Shown here: one piece after another, positions 4,405-32,049 of the stretch
Layout of the letters: the number at the start of each line of letters is the position of its first letter
Position numbering within the stretch: position 1 is the first letter of the stretch
Origin: an uncultured Acidobacteriia bacterium
Lineage (GTDB): Bacteria > Acidobacteriota > Terriglobia > Bryobacterales > Bryobacteraceae
DNA length: 64,000 nt
Direction: 5' to 3'
Assembly: GCA_903875575.1 (NCBI GenBank)
Contig: CAIQWJ010000019.1
Span: forward strand, 1 to 64,000
Notes under the pieces: generated by a model
What the model was told of the DNA's origin: nothing
What the model saw: only the letters and a program-made list of their open reading frames with translations
The model's database searches: none
Translations under genes and position numbers: made by a program

Positions 4405-6845
4405 TCCCACACCCCCGGATTCACTTCGTACCGATTCGACGGACGCCCGCCAAAGGGTCGAGACTCGCCAGACAAGTCCCGGACCCATCTGGCATCCTCA
4501 AGGACTTCGGCCGCCTGCTTCACCGCTTCCGGTGAGTCCAGACCGCTCCACCCCTTCAGATAAACGTCCCGACAGGAGAAGAAGCCATCGGCCCCAATTT
4601 TGCGCCTCTTGATCTTGTCCGCCAGTTCGCGCGCGGCAAGTAGTTGCGGAGTCACGATGCACGAGTAGACCCGCCGCGCATGGGATTCCAGATACTCGCA
4701 CCACGCCGCCGCCCGCGTCGCGCTTGCCAATGAAACCGTATTGTCGTTGCTTCTTCCCGCCGTTTCCGAGAGATGAAACAGAAGCGCCAGGCTGGGCATA
4801 AGGCTCCGGTACTTGCTCAAGTGGGAAATGAGCGCCGGGTGAAGTTCGCCACCGCGAATCTTGCCTTCGAGTTCTTCCAGCCACGTGACGAAGAGTTCCT
4901 GTGCATCCGCATCAAAACGGAACCGCTTCGCTTCTTCCGCTTTCATCTCCACCAATGCGCGAAAGACTTCCGCGGCCTGTTGCGCCGTTGCCGGATCTGG
5001 TGCCCGGTCCACATAGGTCCAGTCCTGTGCCGTGTCCGGCCATACCAGCAATTGAAACCGCTGAATCAATCCGTCATTGCTCGGACCGTCTTCCAGCGCA
5101 TCCACCAGATATGAGCGAAGTCTTCCCGGCTGGATGCCACCTAACATGGACATGCAGCAAGCCTCAACGTGGACTGTGCCCCGCCCGATCCGGTCTATCG
5201 TGTGCCCCGTATCCCCGTTCCACGCCTGAAGACAGAATGCGCGTTCACCTTCCCGGCCCGCACGGTCCAATTGACTCAACCAGCCGGTGAGTTCGTCCCG
5301 GATTACCAGAATTCCCGCCGGGTTTTCGCTCATGGTCTGGTGGAGCGCCTCGAAGGTGGCATCATTCACGACCAACCGCCGCAACTTCGGTTCATCCGGT
5401 TCGTCTCCCGGCCTTTCCGGTGCCGCGTTTCCCTTCTTCGATGCCGCCTTGAACTGCTCCTTCCACGCCGCACGGCGAAGTTCGTGTTCCTCTTTCTCCC
5501 GCGCGTAATCATCCAGCGCCTCTTCGTGCGCCCCACGCCATTCGGTCTGAATCAGCTTCAGCGGGCAGGTAGCCGCCTGTATGACGGGTGACTTCATAAA
5601 GCCCGGTGGGGCGATGATTCCACCCCAAAGGTTCGGCACAATCACCCAGCCGGTATCGTTGGCCTTCGGCTGAATGACGGCCCGCCGGTTCACCGTACCG
5701 GCCAAACAGAGCACCATGACCACCGCCGGGTAGTCCATCGGGACTTGCATACGTTCCGCAACGTCCGCCACCAAGGGACGGAACGAATCCGGCAGCAGTT
5801 CTTCGGAGAACGCTTGCACGGGCGGAAGCTCACTTTGGATCGGTTCCGGCTTCGGCCAAACGTCCGCCGACTCGACGCCCGTCGGGTGTCGGTCCCCACC
5901 CGCCAGTCCCCAGCGTTCCCGCAACTCCGAGAGCGCCGCCGCGTCCATCGGCTTCGCCGCGTCCTCCAGTTCGCGGAATTGCTCGAAGGTGCCGCCCGCG
6001 TCTCGCCAATCGGTAACGTCACCCTTTGCCGGCAAGTCGGGAAGTTCCACTATGCGGACGGAAGCCGCCGCACCCATGAGGGCCGAAGCAACCGCCGCCG
6101 CGTGTTTCCGGCCCGGTTCGTCATTGTCGGGAAGAATGACGATATGCCGGTCCCGGAAGTAGTCCGTCCACTCGGTGTACAGGTGACTGTTACCGGACCC
6201 GCCCGGATTGCAGGATGCTACCAGCCCCCATCCTTCCAGCGTCTGAACATCCTTTTCGCCTTCGGGTAAGTAGATTACTTCCGTCTTCAGGACGTTCGGC
6301 AGACGGTACGGAACGCGCGCTACACCGTCAAGATTCCAAACGGTACCGCCGTTCCGATCAGGCCTGCATTGTCTGAAGCACTTATCGCCATCCGGCTTCC
6401 GGTAGCGGACTTGCTCGAAGAGTAGGTTTCCACTCCGATCCACGTACGGGTAGCGGGCAATCTCTCGCCCGCCACCCGCCGGGCCAGTGGGTTCTGTGGG
6501 TTTTGTAGGTGCCATACGGGTCCGTTTTCCGTTTGAGCGGATACCATGATGCCGGTATTCGGGTTCTATCCGCCCCACCAGCCGGACGATCTCAGCTCTC
6601 GCGGTTTTGAAGTCCGCCCCGGTTAAAGCCTGTTCGAGTGCGAAGATGTCCCATCCCCGTCCGCATTGGGAGTGACAGAACGCATTCCCTGTGGCAATGT
6701 TCACGGCGAAGTTATGCTCCTTCCCTTTGTGGACGGGGCATGGCCCACGCCGTTCGCCGCCGTGTGTTTGCGTCAGCTTCGGGACCCGTGCCGCGTAGTA
6801 CGTGGAGACTTCGCTTGCAGTGAAAGCGATAGCCGGATCAACCAT
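4401..6845 (-). CDS. Primase-like protein: zinc finger, TOPRIM, DUF3987 ATPase-like
   Basis: An 814-residue protein of mobile-element replication. Residues 36-61 form a CHC2-type zinc finger (C36-P-V-H39 with C57 and C61). A TOPRIM domain follows, with acidic residues in LPEGEKD (about 194-200) and ILPDNDEPG (about 237-245). The C-terminal half (from about 345) matches the DUF3987 pattern, including APPGFMKSP as a Walker-A-like loop and VIRDELTGWLSQLD. It begins immediately after the stop of the AlpA-like gene (TAG then ATG). It probably primes element DNA replication; no separate helicase is visible. Confidence 0.85.
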   Translation of the reverse strand: MVDPAIAFTASEVSTYYAARVPKLTQTHGGERRGPCPVHKGKEHNFAVNIATGNAFCHSQCGRGWDIFALEQALTGADFKTARAEIVRLVGRIEPEYRHHGIRSNGKRTRMAPTKPTEPTGPAGGGREIARYPYVDRSGNLLFEQVRYRKPDGDKCFRQCRPDRNGGTVWNLDGVARVPYRLPNVLKTEVIYLPEGEKDVQTLEGWGLVASCNPGGSGNSHLYTEWTDYFRDRHIVILPDNDEPGRKHAAAVASALMGAAASVRIVELPDLPAKGDVTDWRDAGGTFEQFRELEDAAKPMDAAALSELRERWGLAGGDRHPTGVESADVWPKPEPIQSELPPVQAFSEELLPDSFRPLVADVAERMQVPMDYPAVVMVLCLAGTVNRRAVIQPKANDTGWVIVPNLWGGIIAPPGFMKSPVIQAATCPLKLIQTEWRGAHEEALDDYAREKEEHELRRAAWKEQFKAASKKGNAAPERPGDEPDEPKLRRLVVNDATFEALHQTMSENPAGILVIRDELTGWLSQLDRAGREGERAFCLQAWNGDTGHTIDRIGRGTVHVEACCMSMLGGIQPGRLRSYLVDALEDGPSNDGLIQRFQLLVWPDTAQDWTYVDRAPDPATAQQAAEVFRALVEMKAEEAKRFRFDADAQELFVTWLEELEGKIRGGELHPALISHLSKYRSLMPSLALLFHLSETAGRSNDNTVSLASATRAAAWCEYLESHARRVYSCIVTPQLLAARELADKIKRRKIGADGFFSCRDVYLKGWSGLDSPEAVKQAAEVLEDARWVRDLSGESRPFGGRPSNRYEVNPGVWE

Positions 6846-8346: not shown

Positions 8347-10080
8347 CTAACCCCGGCCCGGACCACCCTGAGCGGCACCGCGTCCGCCGCCACGGCCGCC
8401 AGCTGCAGGTAACAGCGAGACCAGCTTGTCGTCCTGCAGCGGGCGCGATTCACTGACGGTATCGAAAACCATCGCCTGTGGATTGTCCGGCGTATAGGGC
8501 CGCCACTCCAGACCAGGCTGGCTGGGATTCCCTGTCTTCGCAAAACGCACCCAGGCACCGGCAACTTTGTCCTGAAGCGCCATGGCGACCGGGCCGCCGC
8601 CGGTTGCGAGTTTGATCTGTGGCACGTTCAGAGCGTGGAAGCAGAACGCCAGTTCGGAACAATGGAACGCTGTGATGCCACCATTGATTGGGTATTCCCA
8701 CGCATATACATAGTTGTAGACGGGCGTCTTGCCCTTCTCCAGCTTTCGCGCCAGCAGGTTCTTCGAGCCGCCGCGCGACCCGCCCGCGTAATAGAGAACG
8801 TCCTGAATCTTTTTGCGCGGGAAGGCCTGCTTGAACTCCGTGACGATCGCGTCCTTCTTATCGCCGAAGGCTTTTGTGAGCTGCTCGTCGATTTCCGCCG
8901 CGGTCCATTCGTTCTTACGTCCATCACCACGGGTGAGCGTGCCCTGCATTTCGCTGAAGACGGTGCCGGAGATGACGGGGATGTTGTCGGCCCAGTCGCA
9001 GAATTCGCGCATCACGTACTGATCGTCGGCGATGGGGTTCCAGCCGCCAACCTGGATGCCGAGTTCGCGGCTGACAGCCTGGCCCGCCGCGGTTGCAGCC
9101 GCGAGGAGTTCGAGATAGGGAACGGCCTTGAGTTTGTCAATCTGGCTGCCTGTCAGGTTCAGGCTCTTCAGCAAGGCAGCCGTAAGCGCCTGCTGGCCTT
9201 TGATAGCCGCAGCGGGATCTGTGCCGCGATAGCTGGCGCTGCCGCTCTGCGCGGAGACCTTATGGAACAGGCCCTTCGCCACCGGCATGTGCATCAGGCG
9301 GACCACTTTGCCGCCGCCGCCGGATTGCCCGAAGATCATCACGTTGCCTGGATCGCCGCCGAAGGTTTCGATGTTGTCGCGCACCCATTGCAGCGACGCG
9401 ACCAGATCGGCCATACCGGTCTGGCGCGAATTCGCGTACTCAGGACCGTAGGCGGAGAGATCCAGCGTGCCGATGACGTTCAGACGGTGATTGACGCTGA
9501 CCACGACGACGTCGCCGAACTCGCTGAGACTGCGGCCGTCATAGGCGTAGCCTTCCATGGAGGCACCATTCGTGAAGCCGCCGCCGTGCATCCAGACCAT
9601 GACGGGCTTCTTGACAGCCGGTTTCAGATTCTGGGTCCAGACGTTGAGGTTCTGGCAATTCTCGTTGGCGACCCCGAAGCGGTGCGGGAAGACGAGTTCG
9701 TCGGAACTGACCGCGTTGGAGAGCGGACTGGGACACACCGCACCCAACACCTGGGCGTTCTTGACACCTTCCCAGGGCTGTACTTCTTTGGGTTGACCGA
9801 AGCGCTCGGCTGTGGCGTAGGGAACTCCCAGGAATGAATAGGTCTTGCCTTCGCGCAGGCCGCGAAGTTTGCCACCCTTTATGGTTACGACCGGGGGGGT
9901 CAGGTTCGGATTGGCAGGGGCAGCCGGAGTGGCACCGGCGGGGGCGGGGGCTTTCGGCTTCTCCTGGCCTAAAGCGGTGGCGGATTGGAGGGCAACAGCG
10001 GCGGCTCCACCAATTAAGGTAGAACCCACGAGCTGGCGGCGATTCATGGAATTAGGTTTTGGCGATTGTTCACGTGACAT
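8347..10080 (-). CDS. Tat-exported type B carboxylesterase
   Basis: About 577 residues of the carboxylesterase/lipase alpha-beta hydrolase family, expected to hydrolyse esters outside the cytoplasm. The start MSREQSPK is preceded by AAAGG. The N-terminus carries MNRRQLVGSTLIGGAAAVAL, a twin-arginine signal. Family marks include the oxyanion-hole region WMHGGGFTNGAS, the nucleophile elbow in NVMIFGQSGGGGKV (GxSxG with Ser) and the late histidine in FHCSELAFCFHAL. A Pro/Ala linker follows the signal and a Gly-rich tail ends the protein. Substrate unknown. Confidence 0.9.
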   Translation of the reverse strand: MSREQSPKPNSMNRRQLVGSTLIGGAAAVALQSATALGQEKPKAPAPAGATPAAPANPNLTPPVVTIKGGKLRGLREGKTYSFLGVPYATAERFGQPKEVQPWEGVKNAQVLGAVCPSPLSNAVSSDELVFPHRFGVANENCQNLNVWTQNLKPAVKKPVMVWMHGGGFTNGASMEGYAYDGRSLSEFGDVVVVSVNHRLNVIGTLDLSAYGPEYANSRQTGMADLVASLQWVRDNIETFGGDPGNVMIFGQSGGGGKVVRLMHMPVAKGLFHKVSAQSGSASYRGTDPAAAIKGQQALTAALLKSLNLTGSQIDKLKAVPYLELLAAATAAGQAVSRELGIQVGGWNPIADDQYVMREFCDWADNIPVISGTVFSEMQGTLTRGDGRKNEWTAAEIDEQLTKAFGDKKDAIVTEFKQAFPRKKIQDVLYYAGGSRGGSKNLLARKLEKGKTPVYNYVYAWEYPINGGITAFHCSELAFCFHALNVPQIKLATGGGPVAMALQDKVAGAWVRFAKTGNPSQPGLEWRPYTPDNPQAMVFDTVSESRPLQDDKLVSLLPAAGGRGGGRGAAQGGPGRG

Positions 10081-24602: not shown

Positions 24603-24899
24603 ATGAGTGTGAACCAACTGAGCGACGATTGTCATTTTTCCTGTCCGTTCCACGTGACCACAAACCGGATAGAAGACGAACTGGTGGCGTTGAATCTCGA
24701 AACCAGCGCCTATTACGGCGTTGACGGTATCGGAACGCAGATCTGGCGGCTATTGATCGACGAGAATATGACGATCGCCGGGGCAGCCGGCAAATTGATT
24801 GAAGAATATGATGTCGATATGGAGACCTGCCATCGCGAGGTCCGGGCGTTTGTGGAGCAATTGTTAGATGCAAAGCTTCTGGAGGCGGTTCAGTCTTAG
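24603..24899 (+). CDS. PqqD-like RiPP recognition element (lasso B1 protein)
   Basis: A 98-residue PqqD-family protein. Such stand-alone RRE domains bind the leader of a RiPP precursor and deliver it to the modifying enzymes. The fold is visible in EDELVALNLETSAYYGVDGIGTQIWRLL followed by helices (TIAGAAGKLIEEYDVDMETCHREVRAFVEQLLDAKLLE). It overlaps the B2 protease gene by 32 bases. B1 plus B2 side by side is a hallmark of lasso-peptide clusters. No clear ribosome site precedes the ATG. Confidence 0.9.
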   Translation: MSVNQLSDDCHFSCPFHVTTNRIEDELVALNLETSAYYGVDGIGTQIWRLLIDENMTIAGAAGKLIEEYDVDMETCHREVRAFVEQLLDAKLLEAVQS

Positions 24900-25347
24900 G
24901 CTGCGGTCTGTTGCCCGCATGTCGCGGAGCGACAGGACGCTGGTTGCCGAGTCCGTTGTGATGCTTGCGGCGGCGCGGATACTTGTCAAAGCGACGCCAC
25001 GTGGGCAACTGATTAGGCGCATCGGCGGCGCGGTGCCGGAAACGGTTGAGACCGGTCTGTCGGAGGTTGTGATGGGCACCCGGGCGCTCGACGCAGTCCA
25101 TGTCGGGAAGATGGTGGAGCGCGTATCGCACTTCACATGGTGGCGCAGCATGTGTCTCGAAAAAGCGTTAGCTGGCCGGTGGATGCTGCGCCGCAGGGGG
25201 ATCGCCAGCGTGATGTACGTGGGGATGGCGAAGCAGGGACAGGAGTTTGTGGCACACGCCTGGCTGGTTGGTGAGGGGCGAACCGTCACTGGCGGGGGTT
25301 TGCAGAAGTATTCCACGCTGGCAGCGTTTCGCGAGCTCAAGTTCTAG
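24868..25347 (+). CDS. Lasso peptide leader protease (B2, transglutaminase-like)
   Basis: A 159-residue transglutaminase-fold cysteine protease that removes the leader from the lasso precursor. The conserved CLEKALAGRWMLRRRG contains the likely nucleophile Cys96, and FVAHAWLVGEGR contains His130. The third triad member is not obvious: a Glu occurs where Asp is often seen. It is translationally overlapped with the PqqD-like gene and stops five bases from the convergent kinase gene. Confidence 0.9.
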   Translation: MQSFWRRFSLRLRSVARMSRSDRTLVAESVVMLAAARILVKATPRGQLIRRIGGAVPETVETGLSEVVMGTRALDAVHVGKMVERVSHFTWWRSMCLEKALAGRWMLRRRGIASVMYVGMAKQGQEFVAHAWLVGEGRTVTGGGLQKYSTLAAFRELKF

Positions 25348-25352
25348 CGAGC

Positions 25353-26267
25353 TTACGGTCGGGATTCGGCTGCCTGCGCCATGTCTTTGTCGATGGCTTC
25401 GGCAACTTCTTCTATCGTCACGCCTTCACTGGGACGCTCTAAAACGTTCACCCGGACGGAGTCCGCCAATCGGCAGATCTTCGCCAGCACAGGCGGCCAG
25501 TTGCGGACCGCGTCGGCGAAGCGCATTTTGTAAAGGTGGGGGCGGAGAGATTCCAGCTTTTCGAGTCCGGAAAGTGGGCGAATCTTTACCTCCGTCGAGT
25601 CCCCCGGATGCAACACGTAGATCGCTTCCAGTTTCTTTGGCTTTTCGCAGAATGCCCGATCCACCGGATAGTTGAATTTTTCCAGGTCAAACCGAACACG
25701 CTCGAGTGCTCTGTCGTTCAGGCCGAACTGCTCGAGAGTGTTCTTCCAGAGCTTGATTCGGGGATATCCAGGAGCGACAGCCAATTCGTGGGAATCAAAA
25801 TCGATACCACTGATATCATCGGCCACCAGGCTATAGCCATGCTGCAGGAGCGCCATCGTGGTGGTCGATTTGCCGGCACCAATTCTGCCCACGACGATCA
25901 GAGATCCGTCGTGCCTGGAAACGGCATTGCCGTGCAGGGGAACCAGACCTCGTTGGAACAGCAGCGCACCGGAGCAACTCCCCAGCACATGCAGACGGGA
26001 AACGTCGTCATGGGTGGGGTCTGATTCGAATTCAATCAGGTTGCCGTTCGTGACCCGGCCGGAAAAACCGTGCAGGGGGAAGCGGATGGCGCATTCCTGA
26101 CCGCGGAAACGAAAGCGTTCCCCATATTGGACGGTTGGCTCGCCCAGCCATTGGGGGACCGCCGTGCGGCGAATCCGGATAGTCGGTTCGTCGGCTGTGG
26201 TCGGCAGGCCAGGCAGCGCCAGATCCGAGCCAAGCGTCAGTCCAAAGGCTCGGTAGTTAGGCTCCAT
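25353..26267 (-). CDS. HPr-kinase-like protein of the lasso cluster
   Basis: About 304 residues. It has an HprK-type P-loop, VGRIGAGKSTTTMALLQHG (about 126-144), followed by VADDISGIDFDSH. The N-terminal third is a variable beta-rich region. Related kinases in paeninodin-type clusters phosphorylate the C-terminal Ser of the precursor, and the precursor encoded just upstream ends in Ser. The ATG giving MEPNYRAFG was preferred over an upstream TTG. It lies 57 bases downstream of the precursor in the same orientation, so they likely share a transcript. Confidence 0.87.
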   Translation of the reverse strand: MEPNYRAFGLTLGSDLALPGLPTTADEPTIRIRRTAVPQWLGEPTVQYGERFRFRGQECAIRFPLHGFSGRVTNGNLIEFESDPTHDDVSRLHVLGSCSGALLFQRGLVPLHGNAVSRHDGSLIVVGRIGAGKSTTTMALLQHGYSLVADDISGIDFDSHELAVAPGYPRIKLWKNTLEQFGLNDRALERVRFDLEKFNYPVDRAFCEKPKKLEAIYVLHPGDSTEVKIRPLSGLEKLESLRPHLYKMRFADAVRNWPPVLAKICRLADSVRVNVLERPSEGVTIEEVAEAIDKDMAQAAESRP

Positions 26268-26324
26268 CCCCAAGATCAATCTACCATTGCGAAATCGCCA
26301 GGGTAGACCTTCATCCCGGAATCG

Positions 26325-26504
26325 TTACGAGAGTGAGCCGGTATCGGTTTCCAAGGCACTTCCGACGCCGCCTCGCGTGTCGCCAAAAGGAATGGCGATG
26401 ACCTGAGGCGTCTGCCAATTTTTCTTCGTACAGTTTGGTGTGTGCCATGGCTTCTTGGGTGTGGCACCGTTGTTCAGTGGATTTGTCGGCTGTTCCATGA
26501 ACAT
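26325..26504 (-). CDS. Lasso peptide precursor (A), predicted core GGVGSALETDTGSLS
   Basis: A 59-residue ORF lying between the cyclase and kinase genes on their strand. The leader ends WQTPQVIAIPFGDTR. W-x-x-P-x-V matches the aromatic-x-x-P-x-aliphatic motif bound by lasso RRE proteins, and Thr is at position -2 before the cut, as almost always in lasso precursors. The core would begin with Gly1 and place Glu8 for an 8-residue macrolactam ring, leaving the tail TDTGSLS with C-terminal Ser for phosphorylation. A second in-frame Met is two codons in. No strong ribosome site. An overlapping 63-codon frame lacks these features. Confidence 0.82.
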   Translation of the reverse strand: MFMEQPTNPLNNGATPKKPWHTPNCTKKNWQTPQVIAIPFGDTRGGVGSALETDTGSLS

Positions 26505-26594
26505 CTTATCGACCGGTCCGGTGAGATCCTGTAGCGTTACCCCGCCGACGTGACGCCGACCAGGCTGATCAGGGGACTGAATTTGTACGAAGCA

Positions 26595-28382
26595 TCACAG
26601 GTGGGTAGATGCAAAACAGCAAAATGCCTCACGAACACCAGTCAGTGCGACCATGCTGCCCGATTCCGCCGCTGAATCGACTGCTTTTCTGACCTTCAGC
26701 AGATCCACATATCGGCTTGCCGCTGATTTCTCTTTCCGAGTCTCCAGGTGGGTGGCCCAGTCTGAGTGTGCCCGCAAATACTCCTTCTCCAGAGCGTTGA
26801 TCGTCGCCGGTTCCTTCTTTGCCAACTCCCAATTCTCGTGGCCTGGCAAGAGCGGTGTGATTGCCTGCAGGAAGAGCGACCGGCGGGGGGTGGTGGTGTT
26901 CTCGTGCAGGCCAATGGCGAATTCCACCAGACGCCGGTCCAGAAGCGGATACCGATAAACCAGGCCATTGCGTGCGCCACTGGCCGCCCAGTGTTCTGCT
27001 CGTTTCGTAATGTGTCCGCTCTCCAGATAACGGCATATGGTGGCTCGATTTGCGGGGAGACGCCGGACCGCGGGACCTTTCATCACGTCCACTTCGCGGG
27101 AATGACGGGCTGCGAACTCCCCCTGGATGCAGGAAGCCGCGTGCATGGAATAGGGGTTGGCCTTCGTACGGGCATAGAGGCTGTCTGGCAGCCTTTGGCG
27201 GATGAAGTCCCGGAACCTCTCTTGAATGCCCGCAGGGGCCGCCGCACGGCATGAAACAGCTTCATCCCCACCCCAGCCGGAGAGGATAACCCGAAGCTTC
27301 CTCTTTTCCGCGCGCTCCTGCACGTTTGCTTCGCGGGTCAGCATCTCCATCGGTTCTACCGTAAAGTCTTTTTGAAATGTTGCAATCAGGCTTTCCCGGG
27401 TTCCTGGCAGGTACTCGCAGACCAATTCTTCCTGCCGACAGACAGCGTCGATCCGGGCGTACTCTCCTTCCAGCCGCCCGCCCACCTGAGGGGGCGGCGA
27501 CCAGGAAAACATTGCCAACTCCTCCCCGCGCACTCGCAGGATCCGGGCAGCCGCGATTGTGACAGCCGAAGAATCCACTCCACCACTCAGATGGGACCCT
27601 ATTGGAAAGGCGGAGCGAACCCTGCACTCTACAGCCTGACGGAAAAGACTCCCCATAGCCTCTGCGAGATCGCCTGCCCCGCCGCTGCGAATTTCCGCCA
27701 CATCGTCCGGCGACCAGTAGCGCGAAAGTTGCAGCCCCCCGGTGTTCACGGTCAGCGTATGACCGGGAGGAAGCTTGACGATATCGACAAAGAAGGTCTG
27801 CCGCAGTTCCGCGAAGTAGGTGCTCATCTGGAGCCATGCAGCTAGGAGGGGTTCGTTGAGCTTCGGATTCTCTGTCACAGCCAGGACAGCGCGCACATCG
27901 GACGCAAACGAGAATCCCCCTCCATCGTGCCGATAGACAAACGGGACGCACCCAAAGGGATCACGGGCGCAGAACAGCGTCCTCTCTTTTGTGTTCCAGA
28001 TGGCAAACGCGAAATCGCCAAGCAGGCGTGGAACGCAGCCCGCACCCCAGCGTTCAAAGGCCAACAGGATGAGACTGCTGTCAGGCGTTTGCTCGCGCCC
28101 GTTGTCGGGGACTCCAAGGGCATCGAAGAGCTCCGCTCGATTGTCGATGCGCGCGTCGGCCGTAATGATCAGATGCGGTGCAACCCGGATGTTGGTGGGG
28201 AGGCGCTCCAGCATCGATTCCGGTGTTGTACGCAACATCAGATGGCCCAGTCCGGCGGATTCGCCGCACCACTGGCCATGGCCATCGCGACCCCAAAATG
28301 ACATGGCTTCTGCCATGGGAGCCAGAGTTTCCCGCTGAACGGGAACACCGCCATATCGCACCATTCCGTAAATTCCGCTCAT
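26595..28382 (-). CDS. Lasso cyclase (AsnB-like, C protein)
   Basis: A 595-residue asparagine-synthetase homologue. By family it adenylates the ring Glu/Asp side chain and closes the macrolactam. The N-terminal domain begins MSGIYG, with Ser at position 2 where glutamine-using AsnB has the catalytic Cys, so ammonia production is not expected. The synthetase domain carries the PP-loop SGGVDSS (about 266-272) and SGWGGDE (about 368-374). The precursor gene follows 90 bases downstream. It is divergent from the nucleotidyltransferase gene. Confidence 0.9.
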   Translation of the reverse strand: MSGIYGMVRYGGVPVQRETLAPMAEAMSFWGRDGHGQWCGESAGLGHLMLRTTPESMLERLPTNIRVAPHLIITADARIDNRAELFDALGVPDNGREQTPDSSLILLAFERWGAGCVPRLLGDFAFAIWNTKERTLFCARDPFGCVPFVYRHDGGGFSFASDVRAVLAVTENPKLNEPLLAAWLQMSTYFAELRQTFFVDIVKLPPGHTLTVNTGGLQLSRYWSPDDVAEIRSGGAGDLAEAMGSLFRQAVECRVRSAFPIGSHLSGGVDSSAVTIAAARILRVRGEELAMFSWSPPPQVGGRLEGEYARIDAVCRQEELVCEYLPGTRESLIATFQKDFTVEPMEMLTREANVQERAEKRKLRVILSGWGGDEAVSCRAAAPAGIQERFRDFIRQRLPDSLYARTKANPYSMHAASCIQGEFAARHSREVDVMKGPAVRRLPANRATICRYLESGHITKRAEHWAASGARNGLVYRYPLLDRRLVEFAIGLHENTTTPRRSLFLQAITPLLPGHENWELAKKEPATINALEKEYLRAHSDWATHLETRKEKSAASRYVDLLKVRKAVDSAAESGSMVALTGVREAFCCFASTHL

Positions 28383-28440
28383 ATCCTGCGCAACCTGTAG
28401 ATTCTCGGCAACGGCACCCTCACTGTTATAACGCCAATTG

Positions 28441-28473
28441 TGTCATGGGATGTCATACTGTGTTCAAAACACA
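28441..28473. promoter_or_regulatory. Repeats in divergent lasso promoter
   Basis: The 91-base gap between the divergent cyclase and nucleotidyltransferase genes contains two TGTCAT hexamers ten bases apart and a perfect inverted repeat TGTGTT-CAA-AACACA that ends directly before the nucleotidyltransferase ATG. This arrangement could be an operator or a start-masking hairpin. Function is inferred. Confidence 0.35.
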
Positions 28474-29586
28474 ATGTCTGATCGCCTCGCGCCGAAGTCC
28501 AGGCCGCAAAATTCCGGTGTGGCTCTGGATTCCCTATTGGCTGTGCTGAAGGACCCATCGCTGGTGAGCGAACTGGTGAAGAACCCGGATCTGTGGGCTG
28601 AGGTCCGTCATCTTTCCGAAGTTCATCGCCTGGCCGGAGTGTTGGCGCACTCCACCTCCGCCTTTCTACCCGCCGGAGAGCGCACCTGGCGTGACCGCGT
28701 TCTCATGACACACCATGGGCGTCATGCGCGGTTCACCAGTCTGCTTCGTACGCTGGTGCAGACTTTCGATTCCGGGGGCCTGCGCAGCGTTGTTCTCAAG
28801 GGACCCGTGCTGGCGGAGCGTTTCCACGCCGTCCCCTGGTTGAAGTTTTCTCACGATCTGGATCTTCTGGTGCGGGTTTCCGACATTCCAGCCGCTGCCC
28901 GTATCATGGATGGCCTGGGTTTCCGAATGCGCGGAGATTTTCCGTGGAACCTGCAACGCAACTACGGCCACCACCTCAATTTCCACGCCCCGGGTGACGA
29001 ATTGGAAGTCGAGGTCCATTACTCCTTCAAGGCTGGCGCGCACTTATTTCCGGCGGAAGATTTTCTGGAACGCTCAGTCCCGTGGCATTCCCCGGCTGGT
29101 TTCGATTGCCAGGTGCTGGCCCCTGCGGACGAAGTGTTTTACCTGATCATTCACGCGGCCGGACATGCTTTCCAGAGGCTGCGGTGGCTTTACGATGCAT
29201 TGGCGGCGGCGAAGACGCTGGATGAATCGGCACGTGCCCGGGTGCGTAGTTTGGCAATCGAGCGGGGCCTGACCGGATATTTCGTCGCAGCCGACATGGC
29301 GTGCCGCGAGTTCTTCGGCGAGCCGTTACCACTGGATCTCGCGGGCTTCCGGACACCTTGGCTTTGGTCGCCCTTGCAGCCGGGTCATCTGCGAATCATG
29401 GCGCAACGCAACGACTACAGCTTCGGAATTCGGACCCTGGATGTTTGCCGCATGAGCGGTTCCCCGGCCAGCGCGCTGCGGCTTTGCCTGGAAAACGGCA
29501 GCGGCAAATGGCCCACGTGGATCTACCGTTTGCGCGGCGGCTCCGTGGGCCCGGAAGTATTGGCTCGCTCTCTTCGGTCGCTGTGA
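28474..29586 (+). CDS. Nucleotidyltransferase family protein of the lasso cluster
   Basis: About 370 residues resembling the uncharacterised nucleotidyltransferase family (NTP_transf_5 type) often found with lasso and other RiPP genes. The core strand-turn is RSVVLKGPVLAERFH followed by LKFSHDLDLLVRVSDI, with D-x-D acidic residues, then LEVEVHYSF carrying a third acid. The ATG giving MSDRLAPK is used; an earlier in-frame start lies in the repeat region. It ends 12 bases from gyrB, which is convergent. It may add a nucleotide group to the peptide or another cluster product; this is untested. Confidence 0.82.
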   Translation: MSDRLAPKSRPQNSGVALDSLLAVLKDPSLVSELVKNPDLWAEVRHLSEVHRLAGVLAHSTSAFLPAGERTWRDRVLMTHHGRHARFTSLLRTLVQTFDSGGLRSVVLKGPVLAERFHAVPWLKFSHDLDLLVRVSDIPAAARIMDGLGFRMRGDFPWNLQRNYGHHLNFHAPGDELEVEVHYSFKAGAHLFPAEDFLERSVPWHSPAGFDCQVLAPADEVFYLIIHAAGHAFQRLRWLYDALAAAKTLDESARARVRSLAIERGLTGYFVAADMACREFFGEPLPLDLAGFRTPWLWSPLQPGHLRIMAQRNDYSFGIRTLDVCRMSGSPASALRLCLENGSGKWPTWIYRLRGGSVGPEVLARSLRSL

Positions 29587-29598
29587 TCCCGGTCTGGA

Positions 29599-32049
<2,451 letters not shown>

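Follow-up and report, generated by a model that had tools for sequence, protein, structure and literature searches.

The 64,000-nucleotide stretch of DNA analysed here (the window; contig CAIQWJ010000019.1 of an uncultured Acidobacteriia bacterium) very likely holds, at 24603-29586, a complete gene set for a lasso peptide of the paeninodin/pseudomycoidin type, whose C-terminal Ser would be phosphorylated and perhaps glycosylated. Encoded there are five enzyme genes together with a precursor gene, A, and all six are open frames. As the first-pass annotation of this DNA had proposed, a RiPP (ribosomally synthesized and post-translationally modified peptide) recognition element (RRE; B1), a B2 leader peptidase, an HprK-like kinase (K), an asparagine-synthetase-like cyclase (C) and a nucleotidyltransferase (N) lie within 5 kb and match their families (Table 1). 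The presence of the B2 peptidase, the RRE, the cyclase and a precursor with an RRE motif supports the assignment as a putative lasso cluster with A as its precursor. Furthermore, the kinase motif, the C-terminal Ser, a Trp at -15 and a nucleotidyltransferase that agrees at the level of the PF14907 family point to the paeninodin/pseudomycoidin-like group.

The precursor gene is located in the gap between C and K. Here, the same annotation had described a 59-codon minus-strand open reading frame (ORF) with a W-x-x-P-x-V motif, Thr at -2, Gly1 and Glu8, and this ORF alone fits the lasso grammar among the 559 ORFs of 30-100 amino acids on both strands of the window; nor did these 559 include a better precursor elsewhere, a possibility that the annotation had itself held against its proposal. 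Residues 30-44 of A (WQTPQVIAIPFGDTR) place Trp at -15, Pro at -12, Val at -10 and Thr at -2, and the leader carries another W-x-T-P ten residues before WQTPQV. Besides Gly1 and Glu8, the core has a C-terminal Ser (Ser59), which the earlier account had left out and which we take as the predicted phosphorylation site. As a chance estimate, 60 sequences as long as the window were simulated from a first-order Markov model. Grammar matches counted without Gly1 occurred there at 0.88 per 64 kb, or 0.002 for a 316-base gap read on a single strand, and those with Gly1 at 0.03 per 64 kb, while none in the 60 had both Gly1 and a C-terminal Ser. The claim that a longer competing frame hides this gene is not supported: such a frame exists (26276-26467, minus strand; 63 amino acids, GTG start), but it is only four codons longer and disfavoured by codon usage (-0.18 bits per codon), and it lacks the lasso grammar. 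Two further candidates were likewise rejected, namely a 45-residue ATG frame at 26311-26448, without the grammar and with a poorer codon score, and a 59-residue ORF across the N start (28379-28558), without the motif.

A search with the 59 residues of A gave matches in 19/19 genomes of the genus (E of 5 or below); almost all of these were noise, and the only significant one besides A itself was found in genome G593 (G593:C145; E 2.2e-7, 49% identity over 43 residues). This precursor of 68 codons lies directly downstream of a cyclase and contains WxTP twice, and its core reads GSTPSAGPETSQGAGS. The cyclase itself is 64% identical to window C over residues 1-381 and 39% over residues 397-591. 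Two kinase-linked homologues were accepted by position and reading, one in G595 (51 codons, WHAPRI, core SGSIASLPENSTGTMSS; E 0.57) and a second one in G593 (58 codons, WTTPRL, core SGEIPGIPENSSGSTGS; absent from the search matches), both located in the N-K gap directly upstream of a kinase, and the kinases following them are 63% and 55% identical to window K. Two further genomes of the genus have homologues adjoining related genes, where the first-pass annotation had reckoned that a lack of such homologues would speak against it. Aligned with each other, the four precursors share K28, W30, P33, F40, T43, E52, G56 and S59 besides Met1, so that the C-terminal Ser is present in 4/4, and most inner positions vary. 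The first WxTP is restricted to window A and the cyclase-linked copy of G593.

Several findings weigh against this assignment. Core residue 1 is either Gly or Ser in the four precursors, with both kinase-linked homologues beginning with Ser, and the acceptor is found at position 8 in window A and at position 9 in the other three. The coding score of A is weak (+0.06 bits per codon, versus 0.19 to 0.45 in nine neighbouring training genes), and the paeninodin-family model NF033524 reaches only 6.4 bits on A (cut-off 27, E 7.7), over residues 27-34. Among the enzymes, B1 scores 54 bits with its best narrow lasso model, NF033536, below the cut-off of 80, and C scores 377 bits with NF033535, below the cut-off of 525. 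In addition, no ABC transporter was matched among the 29 window proteins scanned, a subset of the window ORFs. The weak codon score, together with the lack of any Pfam match or of an NCBIfam match above cut-off for A, could also mean that the 59-codon ORF arose by chance, the true precursor lying elsewhere; however, homologues occur at orthologous places with leader, acceptor and C-terminus conserved, and no other window ORF fits the grammar, which brings this explanation close to refuted. We thus favour A as the precursor, which would work like a paeninodin precursor and yet stand outside the sequence family NF033524.

C, A and K share one strand, the C-A gap measuring 90 nucleotides (nt) and the A-K gap 45 nt, whereas B1 and B2, overlapping by 32 nt, are convergent with K, and N is divergent from C. 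Beyond N follow gyrB (29599-32025, named by eye), dnaN and dnaA. The counterparts of B1 in G593 and G595 are 82% and 73% identical to it, and B1 does not reach the narrow model NF033530 either; for B2, C96 and H130 are invariant in seven aligned B2 proteins. K, listed with a TTG start (an alternative ATG is at 26267), shares H116, G131, G134, G136, K137, S138 and D154 with nine relatives (10 kinases), and its motif has the same spacing as the lasso kinase motif H148-G163-G166-G168-K169-S170-D186-D187 described in PMC10368454. The full H-G-G-G-K-S-D-D series is found in window K; its second Asp is Glu in two other loci (L063 and L064). Copies of N adjoining orthologous kinases are 61% (G524), 49% (G595) and 48% (G593) identical to the window copy.

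Table 1. Coordinates of the lasso genes of the window and of features in the compared loci (L numbers; positions are those of each locus)
Feature	Position	Strand	Basis or remark
B1, PqqD-like RRE	24603-24899	+	PF05402 63.6 bits, cut-off 23.4
B2, leader peptidase	24868-25347	+	NF033537 74.1 bits, cut-off 33
K, HprK-like lasso kinase	25353-26279	-	Hpr_kinase_C 27.4 bits, slightly below Pfam cut-off 33.3
A, 59-codon lasso precursor gene	26325-26504	-	grammar scan; homologues beside cyclase and kinases
A leader, residues 1-44	26373-26504	-	WQTPQV at -15 to -10, Thr at -2; read from sequence
A core GGVGSALETDTGSLS	26328-26372	-	predicted ring Gly1-Glu8, tail TDTGSLS; read from sequence
C, asparagine-synthetase-like lasso cyclase	26595-28382	-	PF13537 73.8 bits, PF00733 72.5 bits, both above cut-off
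N, PF14907 nucleotidyltransferase	28438-29586	+	PF14907 104.8 bits, cut-off 31.2; TTG start listed
Kinase without adjacent cyclase, precursor or B genes	L061 55-2249		G524, with N
Kinase without adjacent cyclase, precursor or B genes	L062 3997-4914		G477, alone
W-x-x-P-x-L precursor ending Ser-Gly	L134 6555-6689		beside kinase
W-x-x-P-x-L precursor ending Ser-Gly	L137 3161-3295		beside kinase
W-x-x-P-x-L precursors ending Ser-Gly	L140 5838-5969, 6079-6249		beside kinase
W-x-x-P-x-L precursor ending Ser-Gly	L147 6984-7190		beside kinase
W-x-x-P-x-L precursor ending Ser-Gly	L148 6931-7119		beside kinase

From these genes, we infer a pathway whose chemical steps and their order would be as follows. 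B1 would bind the leader via W(-15)xxP(-12)xV(-10), and K would phosphorylate the C-terminal Ser59 of the still linear precursor, as PadeK does with the C-terminal Ser of its own linear precursor (PMC9266682). B2 would then cleave after Arg(-1), adjacent to Thr(-2), and C would link the amine of Gly1 to the side chain of Glu8, to form a ring of eight residues through which the tail TDTGSLS is threaded. Finally, and as the least certain step, N may build on the phosphoserine, since PsmN is needed, either directly or via a host enzyme, for the hexose on the phosphoserine of pseudomycoidin (PMC9266682). For the predicted products, the calculated [M+H]+ values are 1332.628 for the lasso peptide, 1412.594 once a phosphate is present (+79.966) and 1574.647 with a hexose in addition (+162.053).

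The closest arrangement is represented by Priestia aryabhattai pB2.3 (L215) of the paeninodin family, which has the same C-A-K order on one strand, a precursor with W(-15), P(-12), T(-2) and a final Ser, all common to window A, an HprK-like kinase and separate B1 and B2 genes. Its annotated order is cyclase, "paeninodin family lasso peptide", "aldolase" (the kinase match), PqqD chaperone, B2 and ABC transporter; between this kinase and window K, identity is 29% over 295 residues. The window differs from paeninodin-family clusters by the presence of N, by B1-B2 being on the other strand and by having no ABC transporter seen nearby, and A differs from their precursors by missing NF033524 and by the extra upstream WxTP in its leader. 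The psm cluster of pseudomycoidin can be likened to the window by its description, which includes a kinase, a nucleotidyltransferase and a C-terminal Ser site (PMC9266682). In paeninodin-like PbaA, Trp also stands at -15, a residue that hardly varies among leaders of the paeninodin-like type; clusters of this type typically include NTP transferases and HprK kinases (PMC13381572). The bsf cluster of Bradymonas likewise comprises A, B1, B2, C, K and N with the same kinase motif spacing, but has a YxxPxL leader, Ile at -2, the phosphate on Ser3 and a C-terminal Asp (PMC10368454). Soil lasso clusters whose best matches are Acidobacteria contain B1, B2 and C as in the window, one of them with a hand-annotated precursor (PMC9064862); their single named kinase is instead aminoglycoside-phosphotransferase-like, and the available part of that paper mentions no C-terminal Ser.

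The relation between leader type and final residue was followed in 66 stretches, consisting of 10 kb of the window and 65 loci picked by similarity to window K, C or B2, several of which are close relatives. ORFs with Trp at -15 or -16 and Thr at -2 ended in Ser in 42 of 45 distinct cases (28 loci), compared with a baseline of 10.1% of 6323 short ORFs. Within the cyclase-selected subset (27 loci of 66), the same held for 17/18 such ORFs in 13 loci, 11 of which contain K, and the record titles of these 13 loci include Bacteroidales, Halomonas, Verrucomicrobia, Gillisia and Sphingomonas. Y-type ORFs ended in Ser in 2 of 7 cases and ORFs with Trp at -17 or -18 and Thr at -2 in 2 of the 5 found by grammar; the precursors of L063 and L064 have a final Ser without Thr at -2. 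A wider claim is opposed by seven W-x-x-P-x-L precursors of longer spacing, recognised by eye and mostly outside the grammar, which end in Gly beside a kinase (one each in L134, L147 and L148, and two each in L137 and L140), so that the final Ser seems to track the short paeninodin-like Trp spacing and not Trp or the kinase alone.

A second, unbiased sample consisted of 60 loci from the B2 search matches. There, 0/37 Y-type ORFs ended in Ser, 16 of the 37 being in kinase-bearing loci, and W-type matches numbered six, one ending in Ser and the other five appearing chance-like by eye. Two sets of 30 short B2 loci yielded 0 and 6 W-type matches, five of them ending in Ser, and these five are also contained in the count from the 66 stretches. 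With one W(-15/-16) precursor at most, the unbiased sample cannot alone carry a link between Trp and Ser. Thus, the coupling of a W(-15/-16) leader to a C-terminal Ser is put forward as a lead from a biased sample; it would agree with the action of BsfK on Ser3 of a Y-type precursor.

These counts also bear on another explanation, according to which the lasso assignment is right but K targets an inner Ser or Thr, or N leads to no glycosylation. BsfK indeed phosphorylates Ser3 of a Y-type precursor (PMC10368454), the window core holds other Ser and Thr residues and, as a further point against our reading, HprK-like kinases adjoin precursors without a final Ser, including the 16 Y-type ORFs in kinase-bearing B2 loci. 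However, all four homologues keep the C-terminal Ser, whereas most of their inner positions differ, and the W(-15/-16), T(-2) precursors of kinase-rich loci end in Ser in the proportion given above (42/45). We consider modification of an inner residue, or a pathway without glycosylation, unlikely, although a real contender, and retain Ser59 as the probable site.

Other precursors seen in these loci deserve mention. Arrays of three to five W-type, Ser-ending precursors are found near C and K in three genomes of the same family (L065 8783-9459, L066 5817-6776 and L067 8134-9306), with a similar leader and differing cores, and six such precursors occur with B1 and C, and no K there, on a 4950-base contig titled Proteobacteria bacterium (L189 41-3028). 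In L069, a second precursor is followed by a short piece resembling the start of B2 (9248-9581), a picture that would fit a duplication of A-B2 with truncation of B2. Precursors in L069 (8217-8402 and 9248-9400), L132 (8995-9186) and L133 (2510-2830) carry a Lys at six residues ahead of the Glu acceptor; with Thr placed at -2, the two L069 precursors and that of L132 would have Lys as core position 1. L070 has two YxxPxL precursors beside C and K (5521-5652 and 5692-5826), the likely cores of which lack an acidic residue (Asp or Glu) at 7-9 and have Asp as the last residue. In L235 (8095-8424), L264 (8248-9041) and L265 (3904-4233), Y-type precursors have Ile, Leu or Val at the place of Thr(-2), and their leaders resemble the Ile/Val(-2) leaders presented in PMC10368454. 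Finally, a sulfotransferase-like gene (by eye) lies inside two lasso clusters of the genus (L069 6341-7252 and L064 8528-9364).

The site beside gyrB varies between genomes. In G593, the order is gyrB (by eye), N, a polysaccharide-deacetylase-like gene (by eye), A, K, B2, B1 and a TPR gene, and in G595, N, A, K, B2, B1 and the TPR gene are found together. G524 has only N, K and the TPR gene on a contig that starts just past N, and a different lasso cluster elsewhere in its genome. Among the window, G593, G595, G524 and G477, only the window has a cyclase at the K site: in G593, the cyclase and its precursor are on a different contig, and in G595, a same-clade cyclase on another contig is 75% identical over 146 amino acids up to the contig end. 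The C-A-K order recurs in G429. An orphan regulatory role for K was rejected, as K accompanies B1, B2, A and N in the window, G593 and G595; the exception to K sitting among lasso genes is G477, of another genus, where no other lasso gene is found in 15 kb. A first scan of genome contigs with K had given 58 pattern stretches and no relative. The listed contamination of G593 (6%) and G595 (10%) makes the origin of any single contig uncertain; that the cyclase contig belongs to G593 is argued from its exonuclease and GalE neighbours, which are common with G524. A second lasso site (L151 3101-9469 and L131 2051-10263), whose neighbours are an exonuclease, GalE and a PEP-CTERM-like gene (by eye), holds the C-A pair in G593 and the different lasso cluster in G524; no close GalE was found in the window genome.

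Such a distribution could also arise if the pathway were decaying or partial, with K and N as older residents and the C-A pair of the window as an insertion that is perhaps non-functional with them. This would be consistent with G524 keeping only N and K between contig start and TPR gene, with the solitary K of G477 and with the cyclase being on another contig in G593 and G595. Nevertheless, all six window genes are open, G593 and G595 keep B1, B2, K, A and N together with a same-clade cyclase elsewhere (read in G595 over the 146 amino acids before the contig ends), and the C-A pair recurs in G593, as does the C-A-K order in G429 and Priestia. We regard decay as improbable, and a complete gene set in the window remains our preferred reading. 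Beyond the window, we tentatively propose, while thinking it rather doubtful as a whole, that the W(-15/-16)/Thr(-2)/final-Ser signature extends across several phyla and that the pathway of this genus is modular, with a stable B1-B2-K-A-N set beside gyrB and a mobile cyclase accompanied by its own precursor, which in a sister species would apparently serve two unlinked precursors.

The novelty of these findings is modest, as both Acidobacteria lasso clusters and kinase-bearing lasso clusters have been published (PMC10368454, PMC9064862, PMC13381572). A W-type lasso precursor with C-terminal Ser from Acidobacteria was not found in the literature searched, which left out most subscription papers, including the survey of Kretsch et al. 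What the window adds is a specific predicted product of calculated mass, from a lineage in which lasso clusters were reported in silico or as recovered DNA (PMC10368454, PMC9064862), and, if its acidobacterial label is right, it would extend a leader type described as typical of Bacillota (PMC13381572) to another phylum. Should an unbiased survey bear out the link between W(-15/-16) and C-terminal Ser, the phosphorylation site of a lasso peptide would become predictable from its leader. Furthermore, the scattered cyclase of the sister genomes makes it testable whether a cyclase can serve precursors encoded elsewhere in the genome.

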